Below, one piece after another: positions 12,394 to 48,996 of a stretch of DNA of 58,301 nt. The translations under genes were made by a program, and so were the position numbers. The notes below the pieces were generated by a model, which was given only the letters and a program-made list of their open reading frames with translations, did not search any database and had not been told where the DNA came from. The stretch covers positions 1 through 58,301 of the forward strand of contig DATMBG010000038.1 of the NCBI GenBank assembly GCA_035559535.1. Reading direction: 5' to 3'. Numbering within the stretch: position 1 is the stretch's first letter; each line of letters opens with the position of its first letter. The stretch is from Candidatus Limnocylindrales bacterium. GTDB lineage: Bacteria > Moduliflexota > Moduliflexia > Moduliflexales > JAUQPW01.

Positions 12394-12468
12394 GTGTGTG
12401 GAAGTATGGGAGTATGGGGGTATAGCAGTATATACCTCCATACTTCCATACTCCCATACTCCCATACT
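12394..12468. repeat. octamer-repeat hairpin (GTATGGGA family), locus 1
   Basis: Tandem octamers of the form GTATGGRR run up to a GTATATAC centre, and their complements (CTCCCATA phase) run away from it, giving a long imperfect hairpin. It fills the gap between two convergent genes and may act as a two-way transcription terminator. Related copies lie at 29892-30056 and 31302-31368. Confidence 0.85.
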
Positions 12469-12474
12469 TTCTAC

Positions 12475-19578: not shown

Positions 19579-19689
19579 TTGTCCGTTGCCTGTTGTCCGT
19601 TGTAAAGTCTGAAGTCATCCTTTGAATCTTTACCCGCAAAGACCTTTCACCGTTACTTTCCATCCAAAAACAACGAACAACAGATAACT
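19579..19689. repeat. GTCCGTTG-word inverted repeat between trpB and trpA
   Basis: The words TTGTCCGTTGCC and TGTTGTCCGTTG run in tandem at 19579-19602; the inverse ACAACGAACAACAG lies at 19670-19683. Together they could form a hairpin with a long loop between trpB and trpA. The same GTCCGTTG word occurs at 41190 and 48933. Confidence 0.6.
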
Positions 19690-22720: not shown

Positions 22721-22796
22721 AAAGTCCAAAGCCCAAAGTCCGAAGTCCAGAGTCCAGAGGCTGAAATCCCAAACTCATTTAACCTGGAACTTTGGA
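22721..22796. repeat. tandem AAAGTCC heptamers with inverted partner
   Basis: Five heptamers, AAAGTCC AAAGCCC AAAGTCC GAAGTCC AGAGTCC, run from 22721 to 22755. An inverse CTTTGGAC lies at 22790-22797 and can pair with GTCCAAAG at the other end. The repeat sits directly before the trpD start on the minus strand. Confidence 0.8.
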
Positions 22797-29443: not shown

Positions 29444-29887
29444 ATGAAAACCATCAGCGATATTATAAAAGATCAGGTTCCCTGTTCCGTAGCTAAAGAT
29501 CAAACGGTATTCGAGGTTGCGCGTTACATGACAGATTGTCAGGTAGGAGCGGTACCGGTTGTGGAGGGGGATCGCATCTTAGGCATCTTTTCCGAACGGG
29601 ATCTCATGACCCGGGTCGTTGTAAAAGAACTGGACCCCAAGTCAACTCCCGTAGGGGATGTCATGACCACCGATGTGGTCGTTATTGATACCAACGAGAG
29701 TTACGAAAACTGCATTCGGAAGATGAAGCAGTTAAATTGCCGACATCTTCCGGTGGTATCCCAGGATCGAAAGTTAATCGGAGTTATCTCGCTGAGGGAC
29801 CTTCTATGGCTGGATAAGATGGAGAAGGAGGAAGAGCTTAAAATGTTGAACGAATACGTATATGGCGTGCCCGTTGCGGCTACTTAA
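29444..29887 (+). CDS. two-CBS-domain protein
   Basis: A 147-residue protein with a pair of CBS domains forming one Bateman module, which usually binds AMP, ATP or SAM. The first spans about 5-65 (DCQVGAVPVVEGDRILGIFSERDL) and the second about 70-130 (LNCRHLPVVSQDRKLIGVISLRDL). It is a stand-alone regulator of the Hrp1/YrpB type. An AGGGGGTG binding site lies before ATG. Its target is unknown. The octamer repeat array starts 5 bases after its stop. Confidence 0.92.
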   Translation: MKTISDIIKDQVPCSVAKDQTVFEVARYMTDCQVGAVPVVEGDRILGIFSERDLMTRVVVKELDPKSTPVGDVMTTDVVVIDTNESYENCIRKMKQLNCRHLPVVSQDRKLIGVISLRDLLWLDKMEKEEELKMLNEYVYGVPVAAT

Positions 29888-29891
29888 TACA

Positions 29892-30056
29892 GATGGGAGT
29901 ATGAAGGTATGGGGGTATGAGAGTATGGGAGTATGGAAGTGGGGAAGTGAGGAAGTATGGGGATATAGTCATTCCCCTACTTTCCCACTTCCTCACTCCC
30001 ACACCCCCATACCCCCACTTCCTCACTTCCCCACTTCCATACTCCCATACTCTCCT
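29892..30056. repeat. octamer-repeat hairpin (GTATGGGA family), locus 2
   Basis: About nine tandem octamers (GTATGGGA, GTATGAAG, GTATGGGG, GTGGGGAA and similar) are followed by a short ATATAGTC centre and about ten complementary octamers (TTCCATAC, TTCCTCAC and similar). The array is 165 bases long, fills the whole CBS-caiB gap and ends 3 bases before the caiB ATG, leaving no room for a Shine-Dalgarno. Confidence 0.92.
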
Positions 30057-30059
30057 TAC

Positions 30060-31247
30060 ATGAAACCCCTGGACTATATTCGTGTAGTAGATTTATCCAG
30101 AATTTTAGCAGGTCCCTATTGCTCTATGATGTTGGGAGATATGGGTGCCGAAGTTATCAAGATAGAATCCGTTGAGGAAGGGGATGTGACCCGGGGTTGG
30201 GGACCTCCGTTTATCCAAGGAGAGAGTTCTTACTTCCTGAGTATAAACCGGAACAAGAAAAGCCTGACCTTAGACTTGAAACAGAAAGAGGGGCAACAAA
30301 TTTTAAGGGAACTTATTCAGAAATCCGATGTGATGCTGGAAAACTTTAGACCTGGAGTTCTGGATAAATTGGGATTCGGTTATGAGAGGGTTCGTGAGTT
30401 AAATCCCCGGATTATCTATTGTTCGGTTTCCGGATTTGGACATACCGGGCCGAGTAAAGATAAGCCCGGATTCGATCTGGTTCTTCAAGGGGAGGGTGGG
30501 ATTATGAGTTTGACGGGGGATCCTCAGGGACCTCCCATGAAGGTTGGAGTTTCTCAAGCCGATATGGTCTCGGGGATGCTGGCATTTCATGGGATTCTTC
30601 TTGCCTTGTTGGTTAGAGAGCGGACGGGAAGGGGTCAGAAAGTAGATATTTCCATGTTGGACGGTCAGGTAGCCCTCCTCAGCCATCAGGCGGGTATTTA
30701 CTTTGCTACGGGTAAAGCCCCCATGCGAAGGGGAAATGAGCACCCTGCGATTGTGCCTTATGAAACTTATGAAGCGGCCGATGGGTATATCAATATCGCC
30801 GTTGGGACAGAAGGGTTATGGGCCAGGTTTTGTGAGGTTATCGAAAGACCGGACTTAAGGGATGATCCCAGGTTCCGACGCAATGCAGACCGGGTTCAAA
30901 ATCATAAAGAGCTTAATTCCATTCTCAATCCCCTTTTTAAAGGAAAAAGGGTCCAGGAGTGGATCCTTAAACTGGAAGCCGCCGGAATCCCTTGCGGTCG
31001 AATTAAAAATGTAGCCGAAGTCTGTCAGGATCCGCAAGTTCTGGCTCGGGAGATGATTGTCTCCCTGCCACACCCGACCGTTGGAGAGGTGAAAATGACC
31101 GGGATTCCTATTAAATTATCCGAAACTCCTGGAGCCATAGAGTTACCACCTCCCCTGTTGGGGCAACATACAGAAGAAATCCTACAGCAGGTGTTAGGTT
31201 ACAGTGAGGAAAAGATCCGATTGCTGAGAGAGAAAAAGGTGATTTAA
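30060..31247 (+). CDS. CaiB/BaiF family CoA-transferase
   Basis: A 395-residue class III CoA-transferase that moves CoA between carboxylic acids. The start at 30060 (MKPLDYIRVVDLSRILAGPY) is chosen; the frame continues upstream for 66 codons, but these translate the octamer repeat. Family marks are DMGAEVIKIE, NRNKKSLTLDLK, ENFRPGVLDKLG, SVSGFGHTGP, the region around SLTGDPQGPPMKVG that usually holds the catalytic Asp, and PCGRIKNV. The substrate is unknown. The gene is bracketed by two octamer arrays, which suggests it could be a separate cassette in front of thrS. Confidence 0.93.
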   Translation: MKPLDYIRVVDLSRILAGPYCSMMLGDMGAEVIKIESVEEGDVTRGWGPPFIQGESSYFLSINRNKKSLTLDLKQKEGQQILRELIQKSDVMLENFRPGVLDKLGFGYERVRELNPRIIYCSVSGFGHTGPSKDKPGFDLVLQGEGGIMSLTGDPQGPPMKVGVSQADMVSGMLAFHGILLALLVRERTGRGQKVDISMLDGQVALLSHQAGIYFATGKAPMRRGNEHPAIVPYETYEAADGYINIAVGTEGLWARFCEVIERPDLRDDPRFRRNADRVQNHKELNSILNPLFKGKRVQEWILKLEAAGIPCGRIKNVAEVCQDPQVLAREMIVSLPHPTVGEVKMTGIPIKLSETPGAIELPPPLLGQHTEEILQQVLGYSEEKIRLLREKKVI

Positions 31248-31301
31248 TCCAGGTTAAAAGTAAGTGCTTATCATAAAGGCCCGGAGCACAATAAGTAAAA
31301 A

Positions 31302-31368
31302 GTATGGGAGTGTGGAAGTGGGGGGGGGATGGGGGTCTTCCATATCCTCCACTTCCACACTCCCATAC
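31302..31368. repeat. octamer-repeat hairpin (GTATGGGA family), locus 3
   Basis: Positions 31302-31321 and 31349-31368 are perfect 20-base inverted copies (GTATGGGA, GTGTGGAA, GTGG). The loop is G-rich then C-rich. It lies between caiB and thrS and is followed by the words TTCGTGTCCTTTGTGGTG, a spacer phrase I recall from other bacterial genomes. Confidence 0.9.
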
Positions 31369-31417
31369 TCTTCTACTTCCTTCGTGTCCTTTGTGGTGGG
31401 CTTTGATTAAAAAGTCA

Positions 31418-33223
31418 ATGGCCAATGAAAAGGAAAAGGTAGATCAACTGAAACCGCTGCGCCATTCGACCTCACATATTATGGCCGAGGCGGTCATGGA
31501 CTTATTTCCCGGTACGAAGATCGGAATCGGACCAGCCATTGAAAATGGGTTCTACTACGATTTTGAGCTGCCACGCCCGCTTACCCCGGAGGATCTCCCT
31601 CGGATCGAAGCACGAATGCGTGAAATTATTCGTGGGAACCATCCTTTTATCCATAGGGAGATGTCCATTGAAGAAGCTCGGGAATATTTCCGGGATCAAC
31701 CATACAAATTAGAGCTGATCGAAGGAATTGCCAGGGGTGAGTTGGGTACCCATGGGGAAGAAGATGCAAAACCCAGTGAAACGGTCTCCATTTATTCCCA
31801 CGATCACTTTACAGACTTGTGCGCGGGACCCCATGTGAGTCATACCGGTCAGATTCCGGAAAATGCCTTTAAACTCTTAAGTATTGCCGGAGCCTATTGG
31901 CGAGGTAATGAAAAAAACCCACAACTGACAAGGATCTATGGGACCGTCTGGGCCTCCAAAGCCGATCTGGACAGGTATCTCTGGACGTTGGAAGAGGCTA
32001 AAAAGCGGGATCATCGTAGGTTAGGAAAAGAATTGCAGTTATTTATTTTACCCGAAGAAGTGGGATCGGGATTGCCCATATGGCTCCCCAAAGGGGCTCA
32101 GGTTCGAAAGTTGATCGAAGAATTTGTCTATCAGAATCAGGTCGAGCGAGGGTACCAACATGTTTACTCTCCCCATATCGGCAAAAAACAATTATGGATT
32201 ACCAGCGGTCACTGGGATTTGTACAGTGATAAGATGTATGCACCCATGGACATCGAGGGGGTAGAATACCTGGTCAAACCCATGAATTGTCCCATGCATA
32301 TGATGGTGTATAAGTCCCAGTTACGTTCCTATAAAGATCTACCGATTCGGATTGCCGAAACGGCCACGGTGTATCGTCGTGAACAATCTGGTGAATTAAC
32401 GGGCCTTCTGCGTGTACGCATGATTACCCAGGATGACTCCCATATTTTTGCCCGACCCGATCAAGTTAAGGATGAATTTCTCCATGTGCTGGATCAGGCC
32501 CTTTATCAATTTGGTGTATTCGGATTTCAGGAGTTTGAGATGTGGGTTTCGGTCCGGGATCCCCGCAACAAATCCAAGTATTTGGGTGATGATGCCCAGT
32601 GGGAAAATGCCGAACGGGCCATCAAAGACGCGCTGGATTCGCGCCATCTGAAATATATTGTCGCAGAAGGGGAAGCCAAGTTTTACGGACCTGCTCTGGA
32701 CATTATGATTCGGGATGCATTAGGTCGCAAATGGCAGTGTACCACGATTCAGGTAGATTTCCAACTGCCAGAGCGCTTTCAACTGGAGTATATGGACTCC
32801 GAAAGTAAACCCCAAAGACCCGTCGTGTTGCATCGGGCTCCGCTGGGTTCCCTGGAGCGCTTTTTTGCAATTCTGATCGAGCAATATGCCGGAGCCTTTC
32901 CGGTTTGGCTGGCACCGGTTCAGATAAAAGTTATTACCATCTCAGATCGTCACCGGGATTATGCCTTTCAAGTGGCCTCACGCCTGCAGGCCGAGAAGTT
33001 CCGGGTTGAGGTTGATGACCGTTCAGAGCGGATGAATGCAAAGATTCGAGATGCCCAACTCCAGAAGATCCCTTACATGTTAATCGTAGGGGATAAGGAA
33101 ATGGAGGCCAAAGCCGTTGCCGTCCGTCTGCGTACCGGAGAGGATCTCAAGGCCATGCCCCTGGATGACTTCATTGCACTGGCCCGGCGGGTGGTAGAGG
33201 GCAAAAGCCTGGAGTTAAAGTAA
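31418..33223 (+). CDS. thrS: threonine-tRNA ligase, TGS-less form
   Basis: A 601-residue class II aminoacyl-tRNA synthetase. The protein opens almost directly with the editing domain (LRHSTSHIMAEAV, with the HxxxH pair, and FTDLCAGPHV). The catalytic core has motif 2 (YRREQSGELTGLLRVR) and motif 3 (VVLHRAPLGSLERF), followed by a C-terminal anticodon-binding domain (VGDKEMEAKAVAVR). The N-terminal TGS domain of about 60 residues found in E. coli ThrS is absent. Start 31418 is chosen because the frame further upstream reads through the octamer hairpin. No good Shine-Dalgarno is seen. Confidence 0.95.
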   Translation: MANEKEKVDQLKPLRHSTSHIMAEAVMDLFPGTKIGIGPAIENGFYYDFELPRPLTPEDLPRIEARMREIIRGNHPFIHREMSIEEAREYFRDQPYKLELIEGIARGELGTHGEEDAKPSETVSIYSHDHFTDLCAGPHVSHTGQIPENAFKLLSIAGAYWRGNEKNPQLTRIYGTVWASKADLDRYLWTLEEAKKRDHRRLGKELQLFILPEEVGSGLPIWLPKGAQVRKLIEEFVYQNQVERGYQHVYSPHIGKKQLWITSGHWDLYSDKMYAPMDIEGVEYLVKPMNCPMHMMVYKSQLRSYKDLPIRIAETATVYRREQSGELTGLLRVRMITQDDSHIFARPDQVKDEFLHVLDQALYQFGVFGFQEFEMWVSVRDPRNKSKYLGDDAQWENAERAIKDALDSRHLKYIVAEGEAKFYGPALDIMIRDALGRKWQCTTIQVDFQLPERFQLEYMDSESKPQRPVVLHRAPLGSLERFFAILIEQYAGAFPVWLAPVQIKVITISDRHRDYAFQVASRLQAEKFRVEVDDRSERMNAKIRDAQLQKIPYMLIVGDKEMEAKAVAVRLRTGEDLKAMPLDDFIALARRVVEGKSLELK

Positions 33224-34192: not shown

Positions 34193-34390
34193 ATGCCGAA
34201 GATCAAAACAAGACGGTCTGCTGCTAAACGGTTTAGAAAAACAGCTTCCGGAAAGTTCAAAAGAGAACGGGCCTACGGGAGCCATATTTTGACTAAAAAA
34301 TCCAGGAAGAGAAAGCGAAGACTCAAACAAAATACCCTCGTTTCAACGGAAGATCTGAAAAAGGTCAGACGGTTGCTACCCTATGCCTAA
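34193..34390 (+). CDS. rpmI: 50S ribosomal protein L35
   Basis: A 65-residue, highly basic protein starting [14 protein letters not shown] and continuing with [18 protein letters not shown] and RKRRLK, the standard L35 pattern. ATG 34193 is chosen over an upstream ATG because L35 begins MPK(I/M)KT. It lies between infC and rplT in the usual order. No Shine-Dalgarno is visible. Its TAA stop is part of the left arm of the next hairpin. Confidence 0.96.
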
Positions 34391-34469
34391 AACATAAAAC
34401 GTAAAACGTAAAGAGTTTGCGGCCTCTTGGGAGTTGGTTACTTTTTTACGTTTTACGTTTTATGTTTTA
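34388..34469. repeat. perfect 25-bp inverted repeat between rpmI and rplT
   Basis: Positions 34388-34412 and 34445-34469 are exact inverted copies built of the word ACGTAAA, with a 32-base loop. The left arm starts with the rpmI stop codon and the right arm ends 5 bases before the rplT ATG. It could regulate rplT translation, and L20 is known to control this operon in other bacteria, but this repeat does not look like a known L20 site. Confidence 0.95.
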
Positions 34470-34845: not shown

Positions 34846-34908
34846 AAGGGGAAAGGCGAAGGGGAAAAGGTAAAGAATCTTTACCTTTTCCCCTTCGCCT
34901 TTCCCCTT
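34846..34908. repeat. perfect 30-bp hairpin between rplT and pheS
   Basis: Positions 34846-34875 and 34879-34908 are exact inverted copies with a 3-base loop (AAT). The left arm is all-purine except single C and T, with the word AAGGGGAAAGG repeated. It begins 5 bases after the rplT stop and ends 7 bases before the pheS GTG. There is no T-run after it, so a simple terminator is unlikely. Confidence 0.97.
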
Positions 34909-48909: not shown

Positions 48910-48921
48910 CGGTCTGTTCTC

Positions 48922-48983
48922 GGTGGTCCTTTGTCCGTTGTTGCATCCTTAACGGCTCAGATCTCAACAAACAAAGGACCACC
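48922..48983. repeat. GTCCGTTG-type hairpin before ftsX
   Basis: Positions 48922-48940 and 48965-48983 are inverted copies with 17 of 19 matches (GGTGGTCCTTTG at the base). It lies in the 87-base gap between the 1096-residue gene and ftsX, 13 bases upstream of the ftsX start on the minus strand. Confidence 0.85.
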
Positions 48984-48996
48984 CATAAAGAGCAAG

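Follow-up and report, generated by a model that had tools for sequence, protein, structure and literature searches.

Inverted arrays of a G-rich octamer fill gaps between genes in a Candidatus Limnocylindrales bacterium

Two arrays of a G-rich octamer that bracket a caiB-type CoA-transferase gene belong to a large family of dispersed repeat hairpins, which occurs in both species of the genus that we compared. In almost every array a G-rich arm precedes a C-rich one. Between codirectional genes, the arrays tend to occupy the whole space from one stop codon to the next start codon, and orthologous arrays keep their site and polarity in the two species while their lengths vary. These features suggest that the arrays are probably a genus-amplified, slippage-prone family of repeat hairpins, consisting for the most part of tolerated DNA. 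The arrays are here filed with the G-rich intergenic tandem repeats on the basis of their architecture and context, not of sequence descent.

Results

Three octamer arrays in the window

We analyzed a 58,301-nucleotide stretch of contig DATMBG010000038.1, hereafter referred to as the window, and found three arrays of GTATGGGA-type octamers, each with the G-rich (F) arm first and the C-rich (R) arm behind it. Array 1 is composed of a G-rich arm at 29893..29962 (+ strand; octamer HMM segment, score 65.5; sequence read directly) and a C-rich arm at 29973..30056 (- strand; score 72.7), which contain a 46-nt inverted pair (I1; 29919-29964 and 30009-30054) with 93% complementarity. It begins 5 bp past the stop codon of a CBS-domain protein gene (29444..29887, + strand; PF00571) and ends a few bases before the ATG, at position 30060, of the CoA-transferase family III gene caiB (30060..31247, + strand; PF02515, E = 1.8e-143). 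Array 2 lies between caiB and the threonyl-tRNA synthetase gene thrS (31418..33223, + strand; tRNA-synt_2b, tRNA_SAD, and HGTP_anticodon domains), with a G-rich arm at 31300..31336 (+ strand; HMM score 32.4) and a C-rich arm at 31337..31380 (- strand; score 37.6) that form a 27-nt inverted pair (I10, 93%). Array 3 fills a 90-bp gap between two convergent genes, one luciferase-like and the other of the acetyl-CoA-synthetase type, and has its G-rich arm at 12396..12431 (+ strand; score 32.2) and its C-rich arm at 12432..12471 (- strand; score 41.3; 30-nt inverted pair I9, 90%).

The concentration of the unit in these three places far exceeds chance: 14 of the 15 window matches to GTATGGGAGTATGGGA (up to three mismatches) fall within the arrays, and 0.56 matches in the window would be expected from shuffled sequences. 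Fold z-scores were -7.0 for array 1 (as RNA) and -8.7 and -6.9 for arrays 2 and 3, respectively (both as DNA). The preliminary description had placed three arrays at these sites and had read them as octamers in two opposite orientations that fold back on themselves; direct reading, HMM segments, and pattern counts against shuffles bear out the sites, and the HMM, the 90-93% complementarity, and the fold z-scores bear out the unit and its arrangement. Array 1 forms a stop-free open frame, and the mechanical ORF in this region accordingly extends over 29862-31247, while the conserved CoA-transferase protein begins at 30060. Inspection of the sequence upstream of the caiB start revealed no Shine-Dalgarno-like (SD-like) site.

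The window also holds other fold-back or tandem repeats built from different words (34388-34469, 34846-34908, 48917-48988, 19579-19603, and 22721-22756), among them inverted arms built from the heptamer TAAAACG, an inverted repeat of 31 bp without mismatches, and TTGTCCG-type heptamers.

An octamer family across the genome

We further examined base by base a sample of 1.98 Mb (35%) of the 5.6-Mb source genome (G000) and of 0.38 Mb (7%) of its congener (G001). The octamer HMM was trained on the sampled genome and controlled with first-order Markov sequence, in which no segment reached the threshold; a control on reversed sequence was dropped because reversed octamer arrays still look like the unit. 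The unit of the HMM is GT(A/G)TGG(A/G)(A/G), that is GTRTGGRR, and its commonest forms are GTATGGGA, GTGTGGGA, GTATGGGG, and GTATGGAA. The HMM detected 87 array loci in the 1.98 Mb of G000, which extrapolates to about 245 per genome. A 16-base pattern, GTRTGGRRGTRTGGRR, matched 369 times in the forward and 372 times in the reverse orientation in G000 (389 and 333 in G001), and the genome-wide scan called for by the preliminary description thus yielded many loci instead of three only. The other intergenic tandem arrays of the G000 sample had periods of 7 (n = 17), 8 (n = 4), and 9 (n = 1) only. A dispersed repeat of another kind, about 140 bp long, was seen at L141:15239-15376, with many copies of about 80% identity in the congener.

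The polarity of the arrays is nearly invariant. In the G000 and G001 samples taken together, 98 loci read F then R, one weak locus reads R then F, and one reads RFR, besides 21 loci with one arm, some of which lie at contig ends. F-then-R reads identically on either strand, and this is therefore a true polarity: in the 5' to 3' direction, the G-rich strand always leads. The arms are tandem octamers in variable number with no constant end motif, and they are separated by a short AT-rich center. The motif GRGAAT was found on one side of 31 of the 98 array centers, as against six occurrences in 8.4 kb of arm sequence, and this enrichment hints at common founders.

We then compared the arms with one another. 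Arms of the same locus match each other only slightly better than arms of different loci, yet they share long exact matches in excess of shuffled pairings (17.9 vs 15.2, sd 0.35), which is what occasional templated copying would give. On the sense strand, the 5' arm exceeds the 3' arm in length (61.7 vs 52.3 nt; P = 0.002, to be read in light of the several statistical tests run), a difference that counts against a purely neutral DNA model, since such a model predicts no strand asymmetry.

Gene context of the arrays

Using our own codon-usage gene caller (coding fraction 0.84), we assigned the intergenic array loci of G000 to 61 codirectional, six convergent, and one divergent gap. Divergent gaps make up 25% of the intergenic bases, and the shortage of arrays in them is pronounced (binomial P = 8e-8). 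Codirectional gaps with an array have a median length of 167 bp, and all but 20 bp of this is array. The filling of the gap before caiB, which had been singled out in the preliminary description, is therefore the rule. SD-like sites precede only 1 of the 34 genes (3%) that start less than 12 nt past an array, compared with 49% of other codirectional genes, in part because the C-rich arm occupies that spot (an effect of composition). Filling from stop to start, taken with this 3% rate, might reflect a function in translation.

Arrays were also detected in frame inside at least six called genes. These include mfd (L230:2855-2948, on contig C7 of G000), where the array encodes residues 360-391 and is flanked on both sides by blocks alignable to solved structures of Mfd, a homologue of ctaA (L148:13648-13753), a nuoG-like gene (L032:7476-7532), and a further conserved gene (L147:11730-11878). 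Such copies add about 20 to 50 residues to conserved genes, and they are possible because the consensus octamer is stop-free in all six frames.

Single genes bracketed by two arrays, as caiB is, number seven in 1.98 Mb compared with 3.0 expected, a weak excess over random placement (P = 0.027, again one of several tests and to be read as such).

Comparison with the congener

Contig L051 (JAUQPW010000094.1, isolate JZ-2.bins.100) was taken as the congener, the one congener among the genomes searched, and is about 92-94% identical to the window at the DNA level. Both caiB arrays, caiB itself, and the neighboring genes occur there in the same order and orientation, and only the array interiors differ. 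The five array-bracketed genes that could be compared (caiB and four others) are all collinear in the congener, with no gene inversion among them. The preliminary description had proposed that the flanking copies allow caiB to be lost, inverted, or gained by recombination; this part is not supported, as the congener retains the arrays, the gene, its order, and its orientation, with the same flanks and no presence/absence of caiB as far as one relative shows.

The arrays themselves are less static than their sites. Alignment of about 20 orthologous arrays between G000 and the congener showed that site and polarity are kept, while lengths differ up to about two-fold (e.g., 92 vs 183 and 78 vs 168). 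Conservation is mostly at the outer ends, the number and type of units vary inside, and the substitutions are mostly from purine to purine on the G-rich strand. A test for co-evolution of the two arms after the species had separated did not reach significance (P = 0.09, n = 20). The presence of an array differs between the two species at three or four sites. At the clearest empty site, G001 reads TAA-AGGAA-ATG and G000 reads TAG-AGGAA-(181-bp array)-ATG (C12:82271-82451), so that the tight operon joint of the congener is split by the array in G000. The AT-rich center of one array (G000 C37:154290-154469 and G001 C101:10408-10569) reads GTAAATTC in one species and GAATTTAC in the other. This center appears to be flipped between the congeners, which indicates that inversion within a hairpin can occur.

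Two further observations concern individual sites. An octamer array stands in one species and a different hairpin, GTAGGGGCGTACGGCCGTACGCCCCTAC, in the other at a pair of corresponding loci (G000 C33:78289-78352 and G001 C41:38122-38297). The start of contig C10 and the end of contig C182 in G001 both stop at an array that lies within a phosphodiesterase gene of G000; arrays thus seem to break assemblies.

Distribution outside the genus

Three relatives within the order were searched, including the congener, and the other two genomes contained no pattern matches. Among 381 more distant genomes, a stricter 24-base pattern was matched in two, one of them G373 (about 60% GC in the stretch seen). 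Related arrays occur in small numbers in G373 and in other members of its phylum, and some of them are paired F then R. At the loci of this phylum (L264-L284), the octamer was seen together with companion words such as GACGCGG/GACACGGG and TTGGACTTTGGAC. The co-occurrence of octamer and companion words in an unrelated group suggests, at the level of sequence, that a dictionary of repeat words may be shared across phyla. In viral contigs, the matched sites showed single-orientation tracts only and no clear paired array.

Discussion

Relation to known repeats

The STRR of cyanobacteria are short tandem arrays of heptamer units dispersed between genes. The arrays described here are likewise dispersed short tandems, with units of eight and with inverted arms. 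The likeness to STRR-type repeats drawn in the preliminary description is thereby supported, including its point that the unit is an octamer and not a heptamer. Among papers on octamer or STRR repeats, we found none that describes the GTRTGGRR octamer.

The closest described system is that of the G-rich heptamer repeats of Xanthomonas and Nostoc (GGGAATC and GGGGA(C/T)T; Rehm et al. 2015, PMC4692102), which are dispersed and mainly intergenic, lie mostly between aligned ORFs and rarely between divergent ones, and have no known function. Directly past stop codons their G-rich sequence is on the sense strand, and directly ahead of start codons it is on the antisense strand; Xanthomonas has 70-75 convergent inverted pairs, and 83% of the positions are common to two species, with varying lengths (PMC4692102). 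The octamer family resembles them in its dispersed G-rich tandem units, its preference for gaps between aligned ORFs, its depletion from divergent gaps, and its fixed sites with varying length; moreover, it shares the convergent inverted pairs of Xanthomonas, and the strand placement after stops and before starts amounts to the F-then-R polarity seen here. It differs in that the unit is an octamer of another sequence (the heptamers being GGGNATC or GGGGAYT) in an unrelated host lineage, nearly all loci are paired, the center is short and AT-rich, and the whole gap from stop to start tends to be filled.

Two other kinds of repeat share part of this profile. The TAACTGA heptamers of marine Beggiatoaceae occur between genes, near start codons, in more than a hundred tandem sets; they are direct repeats, with one indirect case reported, and no particular RNA structure was predicted for them (MacGregor 2015, PMC4679880). 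Like the octamer arrays, they lie near starts, are rarely followed by an SD site, and are patchily distributed across phyla, but the TAACTGA unit contains stop codons on one strand, whereas the octamer consensus is stop-free (PMC4679880). The arms of REPs are short and fixed and bear a tag, GTAG or CGTC. REP and REPIN elements resemble the octamer arrays as extragenic hairpins in codirectional and convergent gaps near 3' ends, with occasional in-frame copies that include DNA repair genes (PMC3733652, PMC3116915). The octamer arrays differ from them in their variable tandem arms, in the lack of such a tag, and in a genome in which no Y1/RAYT gene was found.

Origin and turnover of the arrays

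We propose that one or a few founder hairpins gave rise to the family by spreading in the genus ancestor, and that its turnover now would occur at the DNA level, mainly by strand slippage and occasionally by hairpin-templated copying. Purifying selection that clears copies from promoters and from most coding sequence may have shaped the present positions, and any effects on flanking genes, such as on mRNA stability or downstream translation, would be incidental and would not explain why the arrays are kept. One point against this explanation is that no enzyme of dispersal was found, as neither PF01797 nor PF00078 had a match in the 96%-complete genome, which leaves the initial spread a matter of deduction. 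The longer sense 5' arm, the gap filling together with the 3% rate of SD-like sites, and the non-significant co-evolution of the arms also weigh against it.

Both REP elements and the stem-loops of processed operons have been suggested to work as functional intercistronic hairpins. If the octamer arrays were functional RNA hairpins of this kind, a co-transcribed array would protect the upstream message or govern translation of the downstream gene. The placement in codirectional and convergent gaps only, the span from stop to start, the strong folds, the rarity of SD-like sites behind arrays (1 of 34), and the longer sense 5' arm would all fit such a role. We nevertheless consider it unlikely. 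Selection on RNA pairing should make G-U mismatches exceed A-C mismatches, and no such excess is seen on the sense strand (311 vs 283, no bias). In addition, arms are matched only a little better within than between loci, the congeners differ about two-fold in array length at some loci and simply lack some arrays, and a missing SD site is what composition predicts behind a C-rich arm.

It is also conceivable, if quite improbable, that the strict F-then-R polarity and the filling from stop to start mark growth or dispersal from a seed, for example the SD site of a tight operon gap, with no known transposase or reverse transcriptase involved. G-rich octamers would be added, the hairpin would replace the ribosome-binding site, and the downstream gene would be translated by coupling across the foot of the hairpin. 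The pair of joints with and without an array at AGGAA and the SD-less genes behind arrays are compatible with such growth.

Similar repeats of Xanthomonas form G-quadruplexes (G4) in vitro (PMC4692102), and consecutive GGG units in the G-rich strand of the octamer arrays might have been selected to form G4 in DNA or RNA. By counts of sequence motifs, 73 of 196 arms contain a G4 motif compared with 58.8 after shuffling of units within arms, and 63 of the 202 G4 motifs of the sampled genome fall within arrays. The motif is missing from most arms (63%), however, and slippage also clusters like units, which makes selection for G4 a very improbable explanation.

The arrays recall REPs (PMC3733652, PMC3116915) in that their arms are inverted, they are dispersed outside genes, they avoid divergent gaps, and some copies lie within genes. 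Together with the presence/absence sites and the recurrent center motif, these features would suit REPIN-like miniature elements, that is, hairpins moved by a Y1 (RAYT/IS200-type) transposase. We regard this origin as highly improbable: no Y1_Tnp domain (PF01797) was found in the genome at E <= 0.001 in a search whose control was positive in 5 of 14 reference genomes, and the arrays have variable tandem octamer arms with neither a GTAG or CGTC tag nor a constant end. Telomerase- or retron-like addition was a candidate because the polarity is the one expected if both ends of a break were extended 3' with G-rich sequence, and it was rejected, as no RVT_1 domain (PF00078) was found. The lack of both a Y1 transposase and a reverse transcriptase domain speaks against spread based on RAYT or on reverse transcription.

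We give almost no credence to the arrays acting as the two ends of a recombination cassette that lets caiB invert, be lost, or be gained. The same octamer is present in both orientations in both caiB arrays, bracketed genes are in mild excess, and one array center was flipped between congeners; but caiB and the four other bracketed genes are fixed in place and orientation at about 92% DNA identity, and long identical tracts are scarce because the order of units differs between arrays. Nor is it credible that the arrays serve as bidirectional intrinsic terminators, despite strong hairpins behind stop codons and the location of array 3 and several others between convergent genes, since a TTTT run within 14 nt is found on the 3' side of 3 of 73 codirectional arrays compared with 17 of 73 on the antisense side, no terminator-like site accompanies array 1 or 2, and one array interrupts a joint that is a tight operon in the congener.

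A DNA-level family of tolerated repeat hairpins thus remains the reading that we favor, and it carries a warning: that octamer arrays bracket a gene does not mark the gene as a mobile cassette. More broadly, the convergent G-rich pairs known from Xanthomonas recur here as octamers that fill most of the gap, in a lineage that is unrelated and has been little sampled. They occur at low copy number in a second group as well, the phylum of G373. This recurrence makes a general, transposase-free process behind such repeats more likely, and the roughly 20 aligned orthologous arrays, together with the few empty sites, offer the material for testing it.
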